NCBI GenBank assembly: GCA_025359825.1
Contig: JANYER010000210.1
Coordinates: forward strand, 1 to 34,556
Length of the DNA: 34,556 bases
Direction: 5' to 3'
From: Granulicella sp.
GTDB lineage: Bacteria; Acidobacteriota; Terriglobia; Terriglobales; Acidobacteriaceae
Shown: positions 28,439 to 34,556 of the stretch, piece after piece
Numbering within the stretch: position 1 is the stretch's first letter
How the letters are laid out: each line of letters begins with the position of its first letter
Notes under the pieces: model-generated
What the model saw: only the letters and a program-made list of their open reading frames with translations
The model's database searches: none
Told to the model about the DNA's origin: nothing
Translations under genes and position numbers: made by a program

Positions 28439-29510
28439 CTTCAGCCTCCAGCTTCAGCAGAATCTTCCCCTCTGCCTCCATGGTCCGGGCCAGCGTCAAC
28501 AGTGCCTGCTTGGCCCCGTTCACATCCTTGCTCCGCACCGGACCCAACGACTCCATGTCGTCCTTCATCATCTCCACCGCTCTCGAGCTCATCGCCTGAA
28601 ACAGATGAGCCTTCACATTGTCCTGTGCGCCCTTCAATGCCATCGCGAGCACTCGCTTATCCGCTGCGCCCACCAGGTCCCGGATACTCTGGATCGGTAC
28701 CGTCACCAAATCCTCAAAGGTAAACATCAGGTTCCGGATGCCAATCGCCAGCTCCGGCTCCTGCGTCTCAATCTGCTCCAGTATCCCTTTGCTCATACCC
28801 TGGTCCATGCTGTTCAAAAGATCCGCAACCGCTTTGAAGCCCGAGTAGTTGGTACGACCCGTACTGCCCGCACTCTCCATCCTCTTCTGCAGTACCAATG
28901 CCACGCTCTGCGCCATCTCCGGCGAGAACTGTCGCATCTCTGCCATCTTCCGCACTACCTCCACTCGCATTGGCTGCTTTAAATAACTCAATACAGTCGA
29001 TCCACGCTTCGACTCAAGGTTCGCCAACACCAGTGCTATGGTCTGCGGCTGCTCTGTCTCAAGATACTTGCAAAGCTGCTGCGGCTCCATGCGTTGCAAC
29101 AGCGCCAGATCACCTGTACTTCGCTCCTGAATCCGCCGTATTTGCTCCAGCAGCTGCTGTGCCTTCTCCGCTCCAAAAGCCTCGGTCAGCAGGCGCAACG
29201 CATAGTCTGTCCCGCCCCGCATCACATACTGCTGTGTCTCCAGCAGTCCATAGAACTCGGAGAGCACTTGCAGCGACTGCTCCGGCGACACCTCTCCCAG
29301 CCGTGTAATCTCATTCGTCACCCGCTGCACATCCAGCTCCGACAAGCTCTGCAATAACCCCGTCGCCAGCTCATCCCCTACCGCAACCATCAGGATCGCA
29401 GCCTTCTGCAATCCCGAAACGTCCGCCGCTACAAATCCCGTATCCGACAGCAGCAACGGTGGCCCCTGCCGCTGCATCGACACTTCTACTGCCTGCACTG
29501 CTGCACTCAT
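28422..29510 (-). CDS. fliG: flagellar motor switch protein FliG
   Basis: GLQKAAILMVAVGDELATGLLQSLSELDVQRVTNEI; ELMFTFEDLV-like MFTFEDLVTVPIQSIRDLV. Confidence 0.97.
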   Translation of the reverse strand: MSAAVQAVEVSMQRQGPPLLLSDTGFVAADVSGLQKAAILMVAVGDELATGLLQSLSELDVQRVTNEITRLGEVSPEQSLQVLSEFYGLLETQQYVMRGGTDYALRLLTEAFGAEKAQQLLEQIRRIQERSTGDLALLQRMEPQQLCKYLETEQPQTIALVLANLESKRGSTVLSYLKQPMRVEVVRKMAEMRQFSPEMAQSVALVLQKRMESAGSTGRTNYSGFKAVADLLNSMDQGMSKGILEQIETQEPELAIGIRNLMFTFEDLVTVPIQSIRDLVGAADKRVLAMALKGAQDNVKAHLFQAMSSRAVEMMKDDMESLGPVRSKDVNGAKQALLTLARTMEAEGKILLKLEAEDDLSV

Positions 29511-31258
29511 GCGCGTCGTCCTCCCTCTTCACGGCCGATCCACGTCTCCAGCAATTTAGTACTCCGCACCGGCTCCCGTCGTATATGGTCCGATACATGG
29601 TCAAAGATGCCCTGCTGTCCCGCCGGTCGATCCAGACTCCGCGCACTCCCACCTGCGACACCCTGTGTCGAGCGCATTTCCTCGTGGTGCTGCACCGTTC
29701 CGGCGCCCAATAGCACTGGCTCCTTCAGCGTTGCATTCACCTGCCTGGCCACTGGGCGCAGGACAAACAGCACCAACAGCACACCGCACATCCCTACCAT
29801 CAGCGTCCGCAACAACCCCGGCTGCGTGTGCAACACACCCTTAGCCTCCTCCATCCACTTGTCCATCCCGACGCCCTTTCCCTCCGGAACATTCGCACTA
29901 AATCCGACATTCTCCATTACGACCTGGTCTCCGCGCCGTCCATCAAATCCCACAGCAGCCTGCGCCAACTGTTCCAGGCGATGCATCTCTTCCGCACTTC
30001 GCGCCTTCCACTCCAGCTTGCCGTCTTTCCCGGTGAAAGCCCGGTCGTTCACCACCACCGCAGCCGTCACACGCCGAATCCGTCCCGGCCCCGCCTCGCT
30101 GTGGATCGTATGTTTTGTAACCGCATAGGTACCATTCTCTTGATGGATCGTCTGCCCTCCGGCCGTGCTCTGCGGATATACCGGTAGCGCCCCCTTTTGG
30201 AGCAATGGTGGAGTACCCGACGCAGCCGCTGCCTGCGACCCCGCCACAGCACCCGCCGGAGCGCCCGCAGGCGAGTTACTTGCCGTCCCCGGAACCCCCT
30301 GCGCCTTCACCGGAAGCGTCGCAACCTGATCGCTCTTCTGCATCGAGAGGGCCACCACCTGGGTCGGGTCGTAGACCTCGTCCGTCCGTTCCTCGGCCCC
30401 TTCGTCATAGCTCACGTTTACGGTAGCGCGTACATTGTCACGCCCAGCCAGAGGCTCCAGCATCGCCACCAGCTTCGACTCCATCCCCAACTCCACATCC
30501 CCTAGAACAGCATCCTTCGAGCGCGACTTCATGCTCACCCGTCCATCTGCGTCCACCAACGTCACATTGTCTGGATTCAGATTCTCCACCGACCCCGCCA
30601 CCAAACTGCGAATCGCGTCCGCCTGCTCTGTATCCATCGCCGATCGTTTCAGCTTCAACACCACGGATGCCTTGGCCAACTTTTGCTCCCCTGCAAACAG
30701 ACTCTGCTGCGGCAGCACCAGGTGTACCCGTGCCGAGCGCACCGCACTGATCGTCCCGATCGTATGTTCCAGCTCGCCCTCCAGGGCCCGCTGATAGTTC
30801 ACCCGTTCATCGAACTCGCTTCCAACCCAGTTGGGCTTGTCGAACAGCTCAAAGCCCAGCCGCCCCGTCTGCGGCATACCCTTCGCGGCGACTTCCATAC
30901 GCGCCTTGTCCAGCATCTCTGCCGGTACCTGCACCCCACCACCATCCGAAGTCATCTCGTAGGAGATTCCTGCCGCCGCCAGCTCCTGCGCCACCTGCTG
31001 CGCGTCCTTACTGTCTAATCCAGAGAACAACACACGCCAGTCCGGACGCTGCGCATACCAGCCCATTCCAGCAGTCGCCGCCACCAGGAACACCAGCGAA
31101 GCAATCAGCCAGCTCCTCTGTTTCGACGGCATCGCACCCAGCCGCTGCCGCACCGACGCGACCATCGCCAGCACCTGCTCAACTGGTCCCGATACCGATT
31201 CTGACGACGCATTCACTCGCTGCAACCCCGTCTGCCCGTTCTCTGCCATTCGCTCCAC
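29507..31258 (-). CDS. fliF: flagellar MS-ring protein FliF
   Basis: WRVLFSGLDSKDAQQVAQELAAAGISYEM, VNYQRALEGELEHTIGTISAVRSARVHLVLPQQSLF. Confidence 0.97.
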   Translation of the reverse strand: MERMAENGQTGLQRVNASSESVSGPVEQVLAMVASVRQRLGAMPSKQRSWLIASLVFLVAATAGMGWYAQRPDWRVLFSGLDSKDAQQVAQELAAAGISYEMTSDGGGVQVPAEMLDKARMEVAAKGMPQTGRLGFELFDKPNWVGSEFDERVNYQRALEGELEHTIGTISAVRSARVHLVLPQQSLFAGEQKLAKASVVLKLKRSAMDTEQADAIRSLVAGSVENLNPDNVTLVDADGRVSMKSRSKDAVLGDVELGMESKLVAMLEPLAGRDNVRATVNVSYDEGAEERTDEVYDPTQVVALSMQKSDQVATLPVKAQGVPGTASNSPAGAPAGAVAGSQAAAASGTPPLLQKGALPVYPQSTAGGQTIHQENGTYAVTKHTIHSEAGPGRIRRVTAAVVVNDRAFTGKDGKLEWKARSAEEMHRLEQLAQAAVGFDGRRGDQVVMENVGFSANVPEGKGVGMDKWMEEAKGVLHTQPGLLRTLMVGMCGVLLVLFVLRPVARQVNATLKEPVLLGAGTVQHHEEMRSTQGVAGGSARSLDRPAGQQGIFDHVSDHIRREPVRSTKLLETWIGREEGGRRA

Positions 31259-31306: not shown

Positions 31307-31636
31307 CTAAAACTGCATATTCATCATCTGCTGATACGCCGCCACTGCCTTGTTCCTTACCTGCAACGCCAATTCAAACGCGATGTCGGCCTTCTGCGTT
31401 GCAATCATAGCGTCGTGCACCTCCACGCCCTGCCCGTTCATCACACCCGTCACGGCCTGCGAAGCCTTCTGGTCCAGCGCCGTCGTCTGCTCCACCATCG
31501 CCCGCATCATTCCGGCAAACGGCATCCCCGCGGCGGATGTAGCCGGATTCGACGCAGCGTTCGGCACCGCAGCATTCGACAAAGCCGTCGCCACAGAACT
31601 CCGTACCTGCCCCGCAACTGCTCCAACTCCCGTCAT
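31307..31636 (-). CDS. fliE: flagellar hook-basal body protein FliE
   Basis: VEVHDAMIATQKADIAFELALQVRNKAVAAYQQMMNMQF. Confidence 0.93.
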   Translation of the reverse strand: MTGVGAVAGQVRSSVATALSNAAVPNAASNPATSAAGMPFAGMMRAMVEQTTALDQKASQAVTGVMNGQGVEVHDAMIATQKADIAFELALQVRNKAVAAYQQMMNMQF

Positions 31637-31684: not shown

Positions 31685-32206
31685 TTACTTCATCAACTCC
31701 AACGAACTCGTCAGCATATTTTTCTCCGCCTGCACCGCAGAAGCATTCATCCCATACGCCCGCGTCGCACCCATCAAGTCCACCATCTCCGTCAACGGAT
31801 TGATGTCCGGGTACGCCACAAATCCATCCGGCCCTGCATCCGGGTGCTGCGGATCATACCGCCGCAGCGGCTCGCTGTTGTCCTCAATCACGCCCGCAAC
31901 CGAGACCCCTCCAGCCACCGTCCGCGCATCGCTGAATCCACTCCCCGCAAAATTCAATCCACCCACCTGACCGGGCACCGTCTGTTCAAGGCCAGCCTGT
32001 CCCAACAGCGCCTGCTGCCCAAACATAGCCTGCTGAAAGCTCCCACCCCCATCCGCTGAAAACACCACATGGTGCCTCCGATACGGTCCACCATCAGCCG
32101 TCCGCGTCGTCTCCGCATTCGCCATATTCGAAGCCACCACCTCGGCCCGAACCCGCTCCGCCTTCAACGCCGAAGCGCTCACATCCATCACACCAAAGAG
32201 GTTCAT
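31685..32206 (-). CDS. flgC: flagellar basal-body rod protein FlgC
   Basis: MDVSASALKAERVRAEVVASNMANAETTRTADGGPYRRHHVVF; YPDINPLTEMVDLMGATRAYGMNASAVQAEKNM. Confidence 0.95.
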   Translation of the reverse strand: MNLFGVMDVSASALKAERVRAEVVASNMANAETTRTADGGPYRRHHVVFSADGGGSFQQAMFGQQALLGQAGLEQTVPGQVGGLNFAGSGFSDARTVAGGVSVAGVIEDNSEPLRRYDPQHPDAGPDGFVAYPDINPLTEMVDLMGATRAYGMNASAVQAEKNMLTSSLELMK

Positions 32207-32209
32207 CGT

Positions 32210-32593
32210 TTACTTAGCCTCCGCGTGGATTGCACTCATCACGCCCGCAAACTCGTGCCGCAACAACTCCACGCCCATCCGAAACTGCAACTGCGACTTC
32301 GCCAACTGCATCCCCTCACGATCCATCGAGACGTTGTTCCCATCCGGCCTCGACACCAAGCCATCCACCTCACTCACCTGCGCCTCGTCCGCACCCCCAC
32401 TCAACTGGCGAGCCATCTCCTGCTCAAAATCAAATCCCTTTGTCCGGTAGCCAGGCGTATCCACATTCGCCATGTTGCCCGCAGTCAACTTCATCTGCGT
32501 ACTCGTCAGGTCCAGATACCGTCCTAGAGCATCCGCCATCGCCGTCGTACTCGGCAGCCCACCCGTATTGATTGGTAGTCCAGTAGTCTGCAT
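32210..32593 (-). CDS. flgB: flagellar basal-body rod protein FlgB
   Basis: ALGRYLDLTSTQMKLTAGNMANVDTPGYRTKGFDFE. ATG at 32593 preceded by GGAGGTG Shine-Dalgarno; supplied ORF starts at 32635 inside the promoter region. Confidence 0.93.
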   Translation of the reverse strand: MQTTGLPINTGGLPSTTAMADALGRYLDLTSTQMKLTAGNMANVDTPGYRTKGFDFEQEMARQLSGGADEAQVSEVDGLVSRPDGNNVSMDREGMQLAKSQLQFRMGVELLRHEFAGVMSAIHAEAK

Positions 32594-32617
32594 CTCTACA
32601 CCTCCGTGCAGAGACGG

Positions 32618-32636
32618 ATGCACTCCACTGACCAAA
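32618..32636 (-). promoter_or_regulatory. candidate sigma-54 (-24/-12) promoter for flgB operon
   Basis: Minus strand TTTGGTCAGTGGAGTGCAT: invariant GG and GC separated by 10 nt, TTGG and TGCA edges match consensus; predicted +1 near 32608, just 5' of the GGAGGTG SD. Confidence 0.5.
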
Positions 32637-32744: not shown

Positions 32745-34073
32745 CTAGTCCGTAACCCGCCGAAACCGTATCTCATCCTCCCCGATCTCCGGGCGGTCGC
32801 CACACAGGATCGTGCCTCGTTCCAGCACATGCATCAACTCACGAACGTTCCCTGGCCACGCATACTCCTGCAGCTTGGCCAGCGCAGCGGGAGTCAGTCG
32901 CTTTCGCGGCATCTCCTGTCCCATCTGCGCCAGAAAGTGCTCTGTCAGCGACGGTAAGTCGTCCTTCCGTATCCGCAGCGCAGGCACCTCCACCGGAAAC
33001 ACCGCCAGCCGATGAAAGAGGTCCAGCCGAAATGTCTTCTCTGCGGACCGCTGCTCCAGCGGCTGATGCGTCGCCGCAATCACCCGCACATCCACGCGCA
33101 ACGTCTCGTTATCGCCGACACGCTGTAGCTCCCCGTTCTCAAGAAAACGCAACATCTTCGCTTGCAACGACATTGGCATCTCTCCAATCTCATCCAGAAA
33201 CAAAGTGCCACCATCGGCTGCTTCAATCCGTCCCGTCCGCGATTGCACCGCTCCCGTAAACGCTCCGCGCGTATGCCCAAACAGCTCCGCTTCCAGCAGC
33301 GCCTCTGGAATCGCCGCGCAGTTCAGCACCACAAATGGCCTCGCTGCCCGCAAGCTCAGCCGGTGCAGCGCCCGCGCCACAACCTCCTTACCGGTCCCCG
33401 TCTCGCCTTCAATCAACACCGAAGTAGAACGCGGCGCCACCATCCGGATCAACCGTGCCAGCTCCATCATCCCCGCATTCGAACCCACCAGCTCCGGAAT
33501 CGAACCCGGCATCTGCATCCCGGGCATCGGTGAACTTGCGAGCAGCGCAGTTGTTCCGACTTCCAGGCTCTCAGCTTCGGCCGGCCGCTCCTTCACCATC
33601 CCCATCGGCTGCCGTACGCGCACCGGCATCTCCACAAACCCGCCGCGACCTGCCGTCCCGTGCACCGGCACACTCGCCGGGGCCGACGCCCATGCTGCCG
33701 TGTCGGTCAGCGGAGCCTCCTGCGCCTCACGCAGTGCATGAAGCAGCTCATTCCGTCGCGGACTTCGCGCACCATCGCCCTCCGCCGCACCATCCACCCG
33801 CAGCACATCGATGCCCGGATACATGCGTCGTATTTGCCCTGCAAACTCGCCCACCTCTAGGTCCGGCAGCCAGCTATCCACCAGCATCGCTTCAGGACGA
33901 GACGTCTCCAGAAACGCCATCGCCTCTGCTCCGCCACCGGCCTCCCGCACCTGCCACCGCAAACCCGTCAACGCCACCCGCAACCGCTGCCGCAACCCTG
34001 CATCCGCACTCGCCAGCACTACCGTCCGCGTCGCCGCCATCTCCATAACGCTCGTCCCAACCGCTACCGCCAT
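32745..34073 (-). CDS. sigma-54-interacting transcriptional activator with degenerate receiver domain and no C-terminal HTH
   Basis: GETGTGKEVVARALH (Walker A), LFGHTRGAFTGA, GGTLFLDEIGEMP (Walker B), YAWPGNVRELMHVLERG; ends at ...EIRFRRVTD with no Fis-type HTH. Confidence 0.93.
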   Translation of the reverse strand: MAVAVGTSVMEMAATRTVVLASADAGLRQRLRVALTGLRWQVREAGGGAEAMAFLETSRPEAMLVDSWLPDLEVGEFAGQIRRMYPGIDVLRVDGAAEGDGARSPRRNELLHALREAQEAPLTDTAAWASAPASVPVHGTAGRGGFVEMPVRVRQPMGMVKERPAEAESLEVGTTALLASSPMPGMQMPGSIPELVGSNAGMMELARLIRMVAPRSTSVLIEGETGTGKEVVARALHRLSLRAARPFVVLNCAAIPEALLEAELFGHTRGAFTGAVQSRTGRIEAADGGTLFLDEIGEMPMSLQAKMLRFLENGELQRVGDNETLRVDVRVIAATHQPLEQRSAEKTFRLDLFHRLAVFPVEVPALRIRKDDLPSLTEHFLAQMGQEMPRKRLTPAALAKLQEYAWPGNVRELMHVLERGTILCGDRPEIGEDEIRFRRVTD

Positions 34074-34076
34074 CGT

Positions 34077-34322
34077 CTAGCCTCGTTCTTCCCGGTTCGC
34101 ATCCAGCAACCGCTGTTCCATCAGGTTGCGCATCATAGCCACCGCCGCGTTCAGCCGTTTGCACTCTCGCAGACCCTCAACTACCGCGGCCTGCGTCGCC
34201 TCTTCTCCACCCTTCATCAGGCCAAGCTCCAGCTTGCACTGCAGCACCGTCAGAGGCTGGCACAGATCGTGCAGCGCCACCTCCATCCCCGCATACATCA
34301 CCTGCGAACTTGCGCTATGCAT
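34077..34322 (-). CDS. 81-aa standalone histidine-kinase DHp (HisKA)-like protein
   Basis: H-box-like VALHDLCQPLTVLQCKLELGLMKG then a second predicted helix; no HATPase_c domain; tightly spaced between regulator genes. Confidence 0.65.
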   Translation of the reverse strand: MHSASSQVMYAGMEVALHDLCQPLTVLQCKLELGLMKGGEEATQAAVVEGLRECKRLNAAVAMMRNLMEQRLLDANREERG

Positions 34323-34325
34323 CGC

Positions 34326-34556
34326 CTACACCCCCGCCAGCGCGACATCGCCACAGAAGAATCCAACCGCGTTCTCCTCGGGCAACTTCGCCTTCACCAC
34401 GGCACCCATCTTGTACCCAGAGCCACGCACCGTCTCGATCACCCCGGCGCTCGCTCCACCCACATCCGCCCCACCCTCATCCGCCGCACCCAGCTTGCGT
34501 CCCAACTTCCGTCCCAACTTCCGTCGTAGATAGTTGATATACACATCCACCACATT
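34326..34556 (-). CDS. OmpR/PhoB-type response regulator, C-terminal winged-helix (partial, cut by window edge)
   Basis: VVDVYINYLRRKLG...VIETVRGSGYKMG is the Trans_reg_C recognition helix/wing signature; frame is open to the window end. Confidence 0.85.
   Translation of the reverse strand, partial: NVVDVYINYLRRKLGRKLGRKLGAADEGGADVGGASAGVIETVRGSGYKMGAVVKAKLPEENAVGFFCGDVALAGV
34488..34523 (-). repeat. 12-bp tandem repeat x3 encoding RKLG-RKLG-RKLG
   Basis: Minus strand CGGAAGTTGGGA x2 followed by CGCAAGCTGGGT. Confidence 0.85.

Follow-up and report, generated by a model that had tools for sequence, protein, structure and literature searches.

Histidine kinase-like phosphotransferases without autokinase activity are represented by ChpT (PMC3433190) and PhyT (PMC5898713), and PhyT also sequesters its regulator (PMC5898713). 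ChpT, which acts in the CckA–ChpT–CtrA pathway of Caulobacter, combines a dimerisation/phosphotransfer (DHp) hairpin with a CA-like domain unable to use ATP, has an OmpR-family regulator as its partner, and belongs to a flagellar and cell-cycle context. The isolated DHp domain of EnvZ ('domain A') has no CA domain and acts on an OmpR-family regulator as well, but it is a laboratory fragment and not a natural gene. EnvZ carries Thr four residues after its phospho-acceptor His (+4), where the protein described here has Gln. That protein, of 81 residues and thus similar in size to 'domain A', is encoded in the window (the whole stretch of Granulicella DNA that was analysed, 34,556 nucleotides) and is, judged by its sequence, a HisKA-type DHp domain. 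It differs from ChpT in having no CA-like domain, whereas longer relatives in other genera are ChpT-like in this respect. By analogy, Spo0B and PhyT may also be compared with it as proteins without kinase activity that carry phosphate on a DHp His, but both keep more than the DHp domain, serve other regulators, and share no sequence family match with it. Our literature searches found no published description of the protein in the window.

The 81-residue gene and its neighbours

The open reading frame lies between genes for an OmpR-type and an NtrC-like regulator, with a flagellar gene cluster downstream (Table 1). The intergenic gaps are 3 nt on each side, leaving no space for an ATPase domain, and no frameshifted CA domain is present; on both points the sequence-only reading was right, and its description of the frame and its core was accurate. 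Homologues occur in 28 of the 36 other genomes of the genus (single-sequence search with the 81-aa protein), the order OmpR–DHp–NtrC is retained among them, and dN is below dS in every tested pair of DHp genes (0.20 and 0.99 for the window against locus L023). The frame is therefore a real gene under purifying selection and not a chance ORF. A single-protein scan of genome contigs gave one locus only, the same contig as G020. A profile of this short form, A1, built from 27 members, has matches at E ≤ 0.001 in 192 of 399 class genomes; its weaker matches include ordinary kinases, and weak class-wide matches from family f6, ~500 aa long, were classed with the latter.

Table 1. Features at the DHp locus of the window
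Feature	Position	Strand	Basis or detail
OmpR/CusR-type response regulator, C-terminal part (winged helix)	34326..34556	-	Trans_reg_C match; aligned full-length relatives; stop at 34326
DHp-only protein, 81 aa	34077..34322	-	ATG start; ORF 34322..34077
Putative phospho-acceptor His18 of the DHp-only protein	34271-34269 (codon)		Followed by Gln22 (+4) and Pro23 (+5)
NtrC-like sigma-54 AAA+ activator, pseudo-receiver, no C-terminal HTH	32745..34073	-	Pfam and alignments; start at 34073
Putative flgB, next downstream	32210..32635	-	Translation; synteny in relatives
Putative flgC	31685..32206	-	Translation; synteny
Putative fliE	31307..31636	-	Translation; synteny
Putative fliF	29507..31258	-	Translation; synteny; TIGR00206 (fliF) match in window genome

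Pfam HisKA (PF00512) matches the window protein with 15.6 bits (E 0.017), under the gathering cut-off of 26.9. At E ≤ 1 the model recognises 21 of 27 short members (best 6.6e-6), and no other Pfam family recurs consistently among them. The short-form profile weakly resembles the DHp domains of EnvZ, QseC and FixL in solved structures (E 0.05–0.5, not significant alone). A Pfam scan of the window protein and the other members gave no match to PF10090 (HPTransfase) or a Spo0B family; among 21 long forms PF10090 matched once, weakly (E 0.02), and ChpT was not among the listed PDB sequence matches of either the short-form profile or the long form.

Although the alignment shows the short form diverging fast outside its core, the core itself is strongly constrained. 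His18, Gln22 and Pro23 are invariant in all 44 short forms aligned, Thr at +7 is present in 43 of them, and +2 is always Leu, Met or Ile; the residue at +1 is Asp or Glu in just 26 of the 44. The same His, Gln and Pro are present in 25/25 long forms, so that the His with Pro at +5 recurs in both sets (44/44 and 25/25) and the phospho-acceptor His is kept in 69/69. The DHp-like H-box centred on this His, as first read from the window, is borne out, and the loss of the His among orthologues that would have spoken against it was not seen.

The OmpR gene is cut by the contig end, and its last 76 codons lie in the window. NCBIfam TIGR01387 (CopR/SilR family) scores best for this regulator, under the cut-off, and in complete relatives the receiver is intact (DD, D, T, K). 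On the other side, the Pfam domains of the NtrC-like protein stop at residue 434 of 442, after the AAA+ lid, and a Pfam scan of it did not find HTH_8. In its receiver only the Asp is conserved, within [LVI]xDxWLPDLE, the acidic pair and the Lys being gone; such a pseudo-receiver without a DNA-binding domain was seen in all relatives examined. The activator may act from solution or via a partner.

Counting the window and 28 further loci of the genus, OmpR is present in 28/29 and NtrC in 28/29, and flgB–flgC–fliE–fliF, or their start, follow NtrC in 22/29; in the window, genes read from their sequence as fliG, fliH, fliI and fliJ come after fliF. An OmpR gene lies directly upstream of the DHp gene in 28/29 of these loci, in 15/15 further short forms and in 25/25 long forms, making the OmpR-type regulator the most constant partner of the DHp protein. 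This conserved neighbourhood supports the earlier proposal of a flagellar regulatory operon with that regulator as the likely partner. Two loci depart from the pattern: L039 (G034) has DHp–NtrC with no OmpR found, in a locus containing 150 N, and L044 (G008) has OmpR–DHp without NtrC.

Long-form relatives and the origin of the short form

Elsewhere in the class, namely in further genera of this family and in families f2, f3, f5, f7 and f8, the ORF right after the homologous OmpR gene is ~230–300 aa long and encodes a DHp and a CA (HATPase-like) domain, the N-terminal part aligning with the short form. HisKA matches 20 of 21 long forms (best 2.3e-10) and HATPase_c 12 of 21. Of the 25 long forms, 2 have the N-box Asn, 10 the G1 Asp and a single one the first G2 Gly; none combines all the N-box and G-box residues. 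In the comparison set, the 12 ordinary kinases of the window genome, N-box Asn, DxGxG and G2 glycines are conserved throughout. The short form thus lacks the CA domain of a functional kinase altogether, and in the long form its N-box, G1 and G2 motifs are incomplete. By these residues the long forms' CA domain is degenerate and has probably lost ATP binding. The occurrence of such long forms after the same OmpR gene in other genera and families of the class is new here. They combine a DHp His with a degenerate CA-like domain, as ChpT and Spo0B do, and the window protein does not.

AlphaFold predicted the long form L103 as a DHp hairpin (residues 13–39 and 44–75) plus a CA fold (pLDDT 88.7, pTM 0.83), and the top structural matches of this model are ordinary HisKA kinases. 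The short form alone (27 sequences) was modelled as a single straight helix over residues 4–80 (77 residues; mean pLDDT 89). We do not accept the straight helix as its true fold, because the long homologue is modelled as a hairpin and the short-form alignment shows indels and prolines in the loop at the expected turn. A hairpin is the probable fold by homology, in disagreement with the short form's own model; the two-helix hairpin first read from the sequence is therefore backed by the long homologue and was not reproduced in the prediction for the short form alone.

By sequence, the closest solved homologue of the long form is CusS (7zp0, E 6.6e-33), a pairing that recalls the best-scoring, below cut-off CopR/SilR assignment of the OmpR neighbour and so CusS/CusR-type pairs; CusS, however, is a sensor in the membrane whose CA domain is intact, and the long form has lost both the sensor and the ATP-binding residues. 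This homology to full kinases and the wider distribution of the long form indicate that it is ancestral and the short form derived. A tree built from the neighbouring OmpR proteins divides 41 short-form rows from 27 others on one branch (SH-aLRT 99; root not fixed). Orthologues with a full HATPase domain had been named in the sequence-only reading as a sign of simple truncation, and relatives beside the same OmpR gene do have the CA fold, but its ATP-binding residues are gone. Since the CA domain of the relatives is already degenerate, simple truncation of a working kinase is rejected; on sequence grounds the short form is best described as a reduced derivative of a ChpT/Spo0B/PhyT-like non-kinase. 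A second DHp-only gene, L051:7986-8171 (+) in G046 of family f2, adjoins an OmpR gene and is followed by an unrelated gene. It groups with the long forms in the OmpR tree, and the CA domain was probably lost there independently, that is, twice in all.

Flagellar context and the FlrB/FlrC tier

The position of the gene suggests a flagellar role. In the genus sample a strong DHp match is present in 33/33 fliF-positive genomes, and of two genomes without fliF one has no match and the other a weak one (8.5e-5). Strict co-occurrence of flagella and DHp holds for this sample but fails across the class, where many genomes outside the genus have fliF without the OmpR–DHp pair. The pair was also found without fliF in several genomes outside the genus, e.g. 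G102, G169, G306 and G363; it may therefore have roles beyond flagella.

FlrBC/FleSR and FlgSR are the known flagellar systems to which the cluster can be compared, as related genomes hold a FlrB-like kinase and a FlrC-like regulator in the same cluster, with flgB downstream. At L139, L140 and L141 (G286, G331 and G125) the order is OmpR, DHp/CA-like protein, HTH-less NtrC, FlrB-like PAS kinase, FlrC-like regulator and flgB, with fliF at most a few kb away on the contig. Receiver and HTH_8 are both present in the FlrC-like protein of G286. The window clade, in contrast, is without that pair, having lost the FlrB/FlrC tier of the ancestral cluster, and its DHp protein is unrelated to FlrB and FlrC. 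No FlrB-like kinase is encoded in the window genome (85.8% complete) or in most members of the genus; five members (G003, G006, G019, G030 and G036) have the gene at a different location. FlrB was considered as a dedicated kinase for the DHp protein and rejected, being present in few species of the genus only.

Proposed phosphotransfer and competing explanations

Without a CA domain the DHp protein cannot phosphorylate itself, so phosphate must come from a receiver or another kinase, and its probable role at the neighbouring regulator is phosphate transfer or removal, not the making of phosphate signals. Our preferred reading, held tentatively and at a little under an even chance, is that the free-standing domain would serve the OmpR-type regulator encoded just upstream as a histidine phosphotransfer protein. 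We infer dimer, docking, phosphotransfer, direction of flow and effect on flagellar genes alike: a pair of copies would assemble into a four-helix bundle to which the OmpR receiver binds, allowing phosphoryl exchange between His18 and the Asp of the receiver. The source would be either a receiver (OmpR~P, with the DHp protein as phosphate sink, or another donor) or a kinase in trans. The His invariant in 69/69 members, none with an intact CA domain, points to phosphotransfer, and the intact OmpR receiver with its gene directly upstream appears to support it, as do, by analogy, ChpT and PhyT. Against it, a phosphodonor was looked for and none was found, and neither the window genome nor most of the genus encodes the FlrB-like kinase of the ancestral cluster; the predicted straight helix of the short form also speaks against it, and the contact area for a response regulator without a CA domain would be smaller than in ChpT.

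The main rival, possible but doubtful, is a stand-alone OmpR~P phosphatase, the natural equivalent of EnvZ 'domain A', in which Gln22 would place the water and the regulator would stay off unless phosphate input is strong. For EnvZ and NtrB, the DHp domain on its own is enough for phosphatase activity, and in HisKA kinases the acidic residue at His+1 is needed for kinase activity only, phosphatase activity depending on +4 as the key residue, where Thr or Asn is needed (PMC3510030). Here +4 is an invariant Gln, in the same HxxxQPL box as in FixL kinases (HELNQPL), and the output module of FixL shows strong net phosphatase activity (PMC13322254), which keeps a phosphatase alive as an explanation. 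In CrdS, however, Asn to Gln at +4 abolished phosphatase activity, while His to Ala left most of it (PMC3510030); a His only mildly needed for a phosphatase is nevertheless invariant here, which favours phosphotransfer, and a CA domain usually boosts phosphatase activity. The relaxed His+1, acidic in 26/44 short and 6/25 long forms against 11/12 ordinary HisKA kinases of the same genome, counts in favour of phosphotransfer and is expected without a CA domain. It also argues against acceptance of phosphate from ATP, and so against phosphorylation of His18 in trans by the CA domain of another kinase, FlrB-like or otherwise soluble. Halves of EnvZ can act in trans and a FlrB-like kinase belongs to the ancestral cluster, but FlrB was lost in most of the genus while the DHp protein was kept, and we consider such a split kinase very improbable.

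Ranked third, and unlikely, is a non-catalytic adaptor in which a DHp dimer would join OmpR, for promoter binding, to the HTH-less NtrC, for sigma-54 activation. The OmpR–DHp–NtrC order is conserved, and the neighbour, HTH-less with a pseudo-receiver in all members, has no HTH-based promoter targeting of its own. Pure scaffolding, however, leaves the invariant His and Gln unexplained, the NtrC-like neighbour is often missing beside the long form (e.g. L089, L093, L101, L103) and at L044, and activators that do not bind DNA, such as FlgR of Helicobacter, work from solution. The sequence-only reading had also proposed that phosphate is shuttled to the sigma-54 activator; a relay through the NtrC receiver is disfavoured, as the acidic pair and Lys are lost, though the DHp protein may sequester this activator. 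Least credible of all is a vestige, a kinase gene decaying after CA loss and kept as an operon spacer. In its favour, CA degeneration preceded CA loss, and sequence outside the core changes fast; against it stand a dN far below dS, an H-box unchanged across three genera and an open frame in every short form examined.

A more far-reaching proposal, which we regard as speculative and distinctly unlikely, is that the DHp protein is essential in Acidobacteriaceae flagellar control, bridging the DNA-binding OmpR-family regulator and a sigma-54 activator that has neither a DNA-binding domain nor a working receiver; His phosphorylation would switch the complex, and the DHp protein would have arisen in two steps, losing first the ATP-binding residues and later the entire CA domain. 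The known phosphotransferases derived from histidine kinases keep a CA-like domain with an uncertain role. Here, a graded natural series stands beside one regulator: ordinary kinases provide the control, a putative pseudo-kinase has a CA domain in decay, and the bare DHp domain still has its invariant His. The series makes the sufficiency of DHp alone for signalling in the cell directly testable. For Acidobacteriota, the locus would represent an unstudied route of flagellar control, in which an OmpR-type regulator and a sigma-54 activator lacking a DNA-binding domain take the place of FlrBC.
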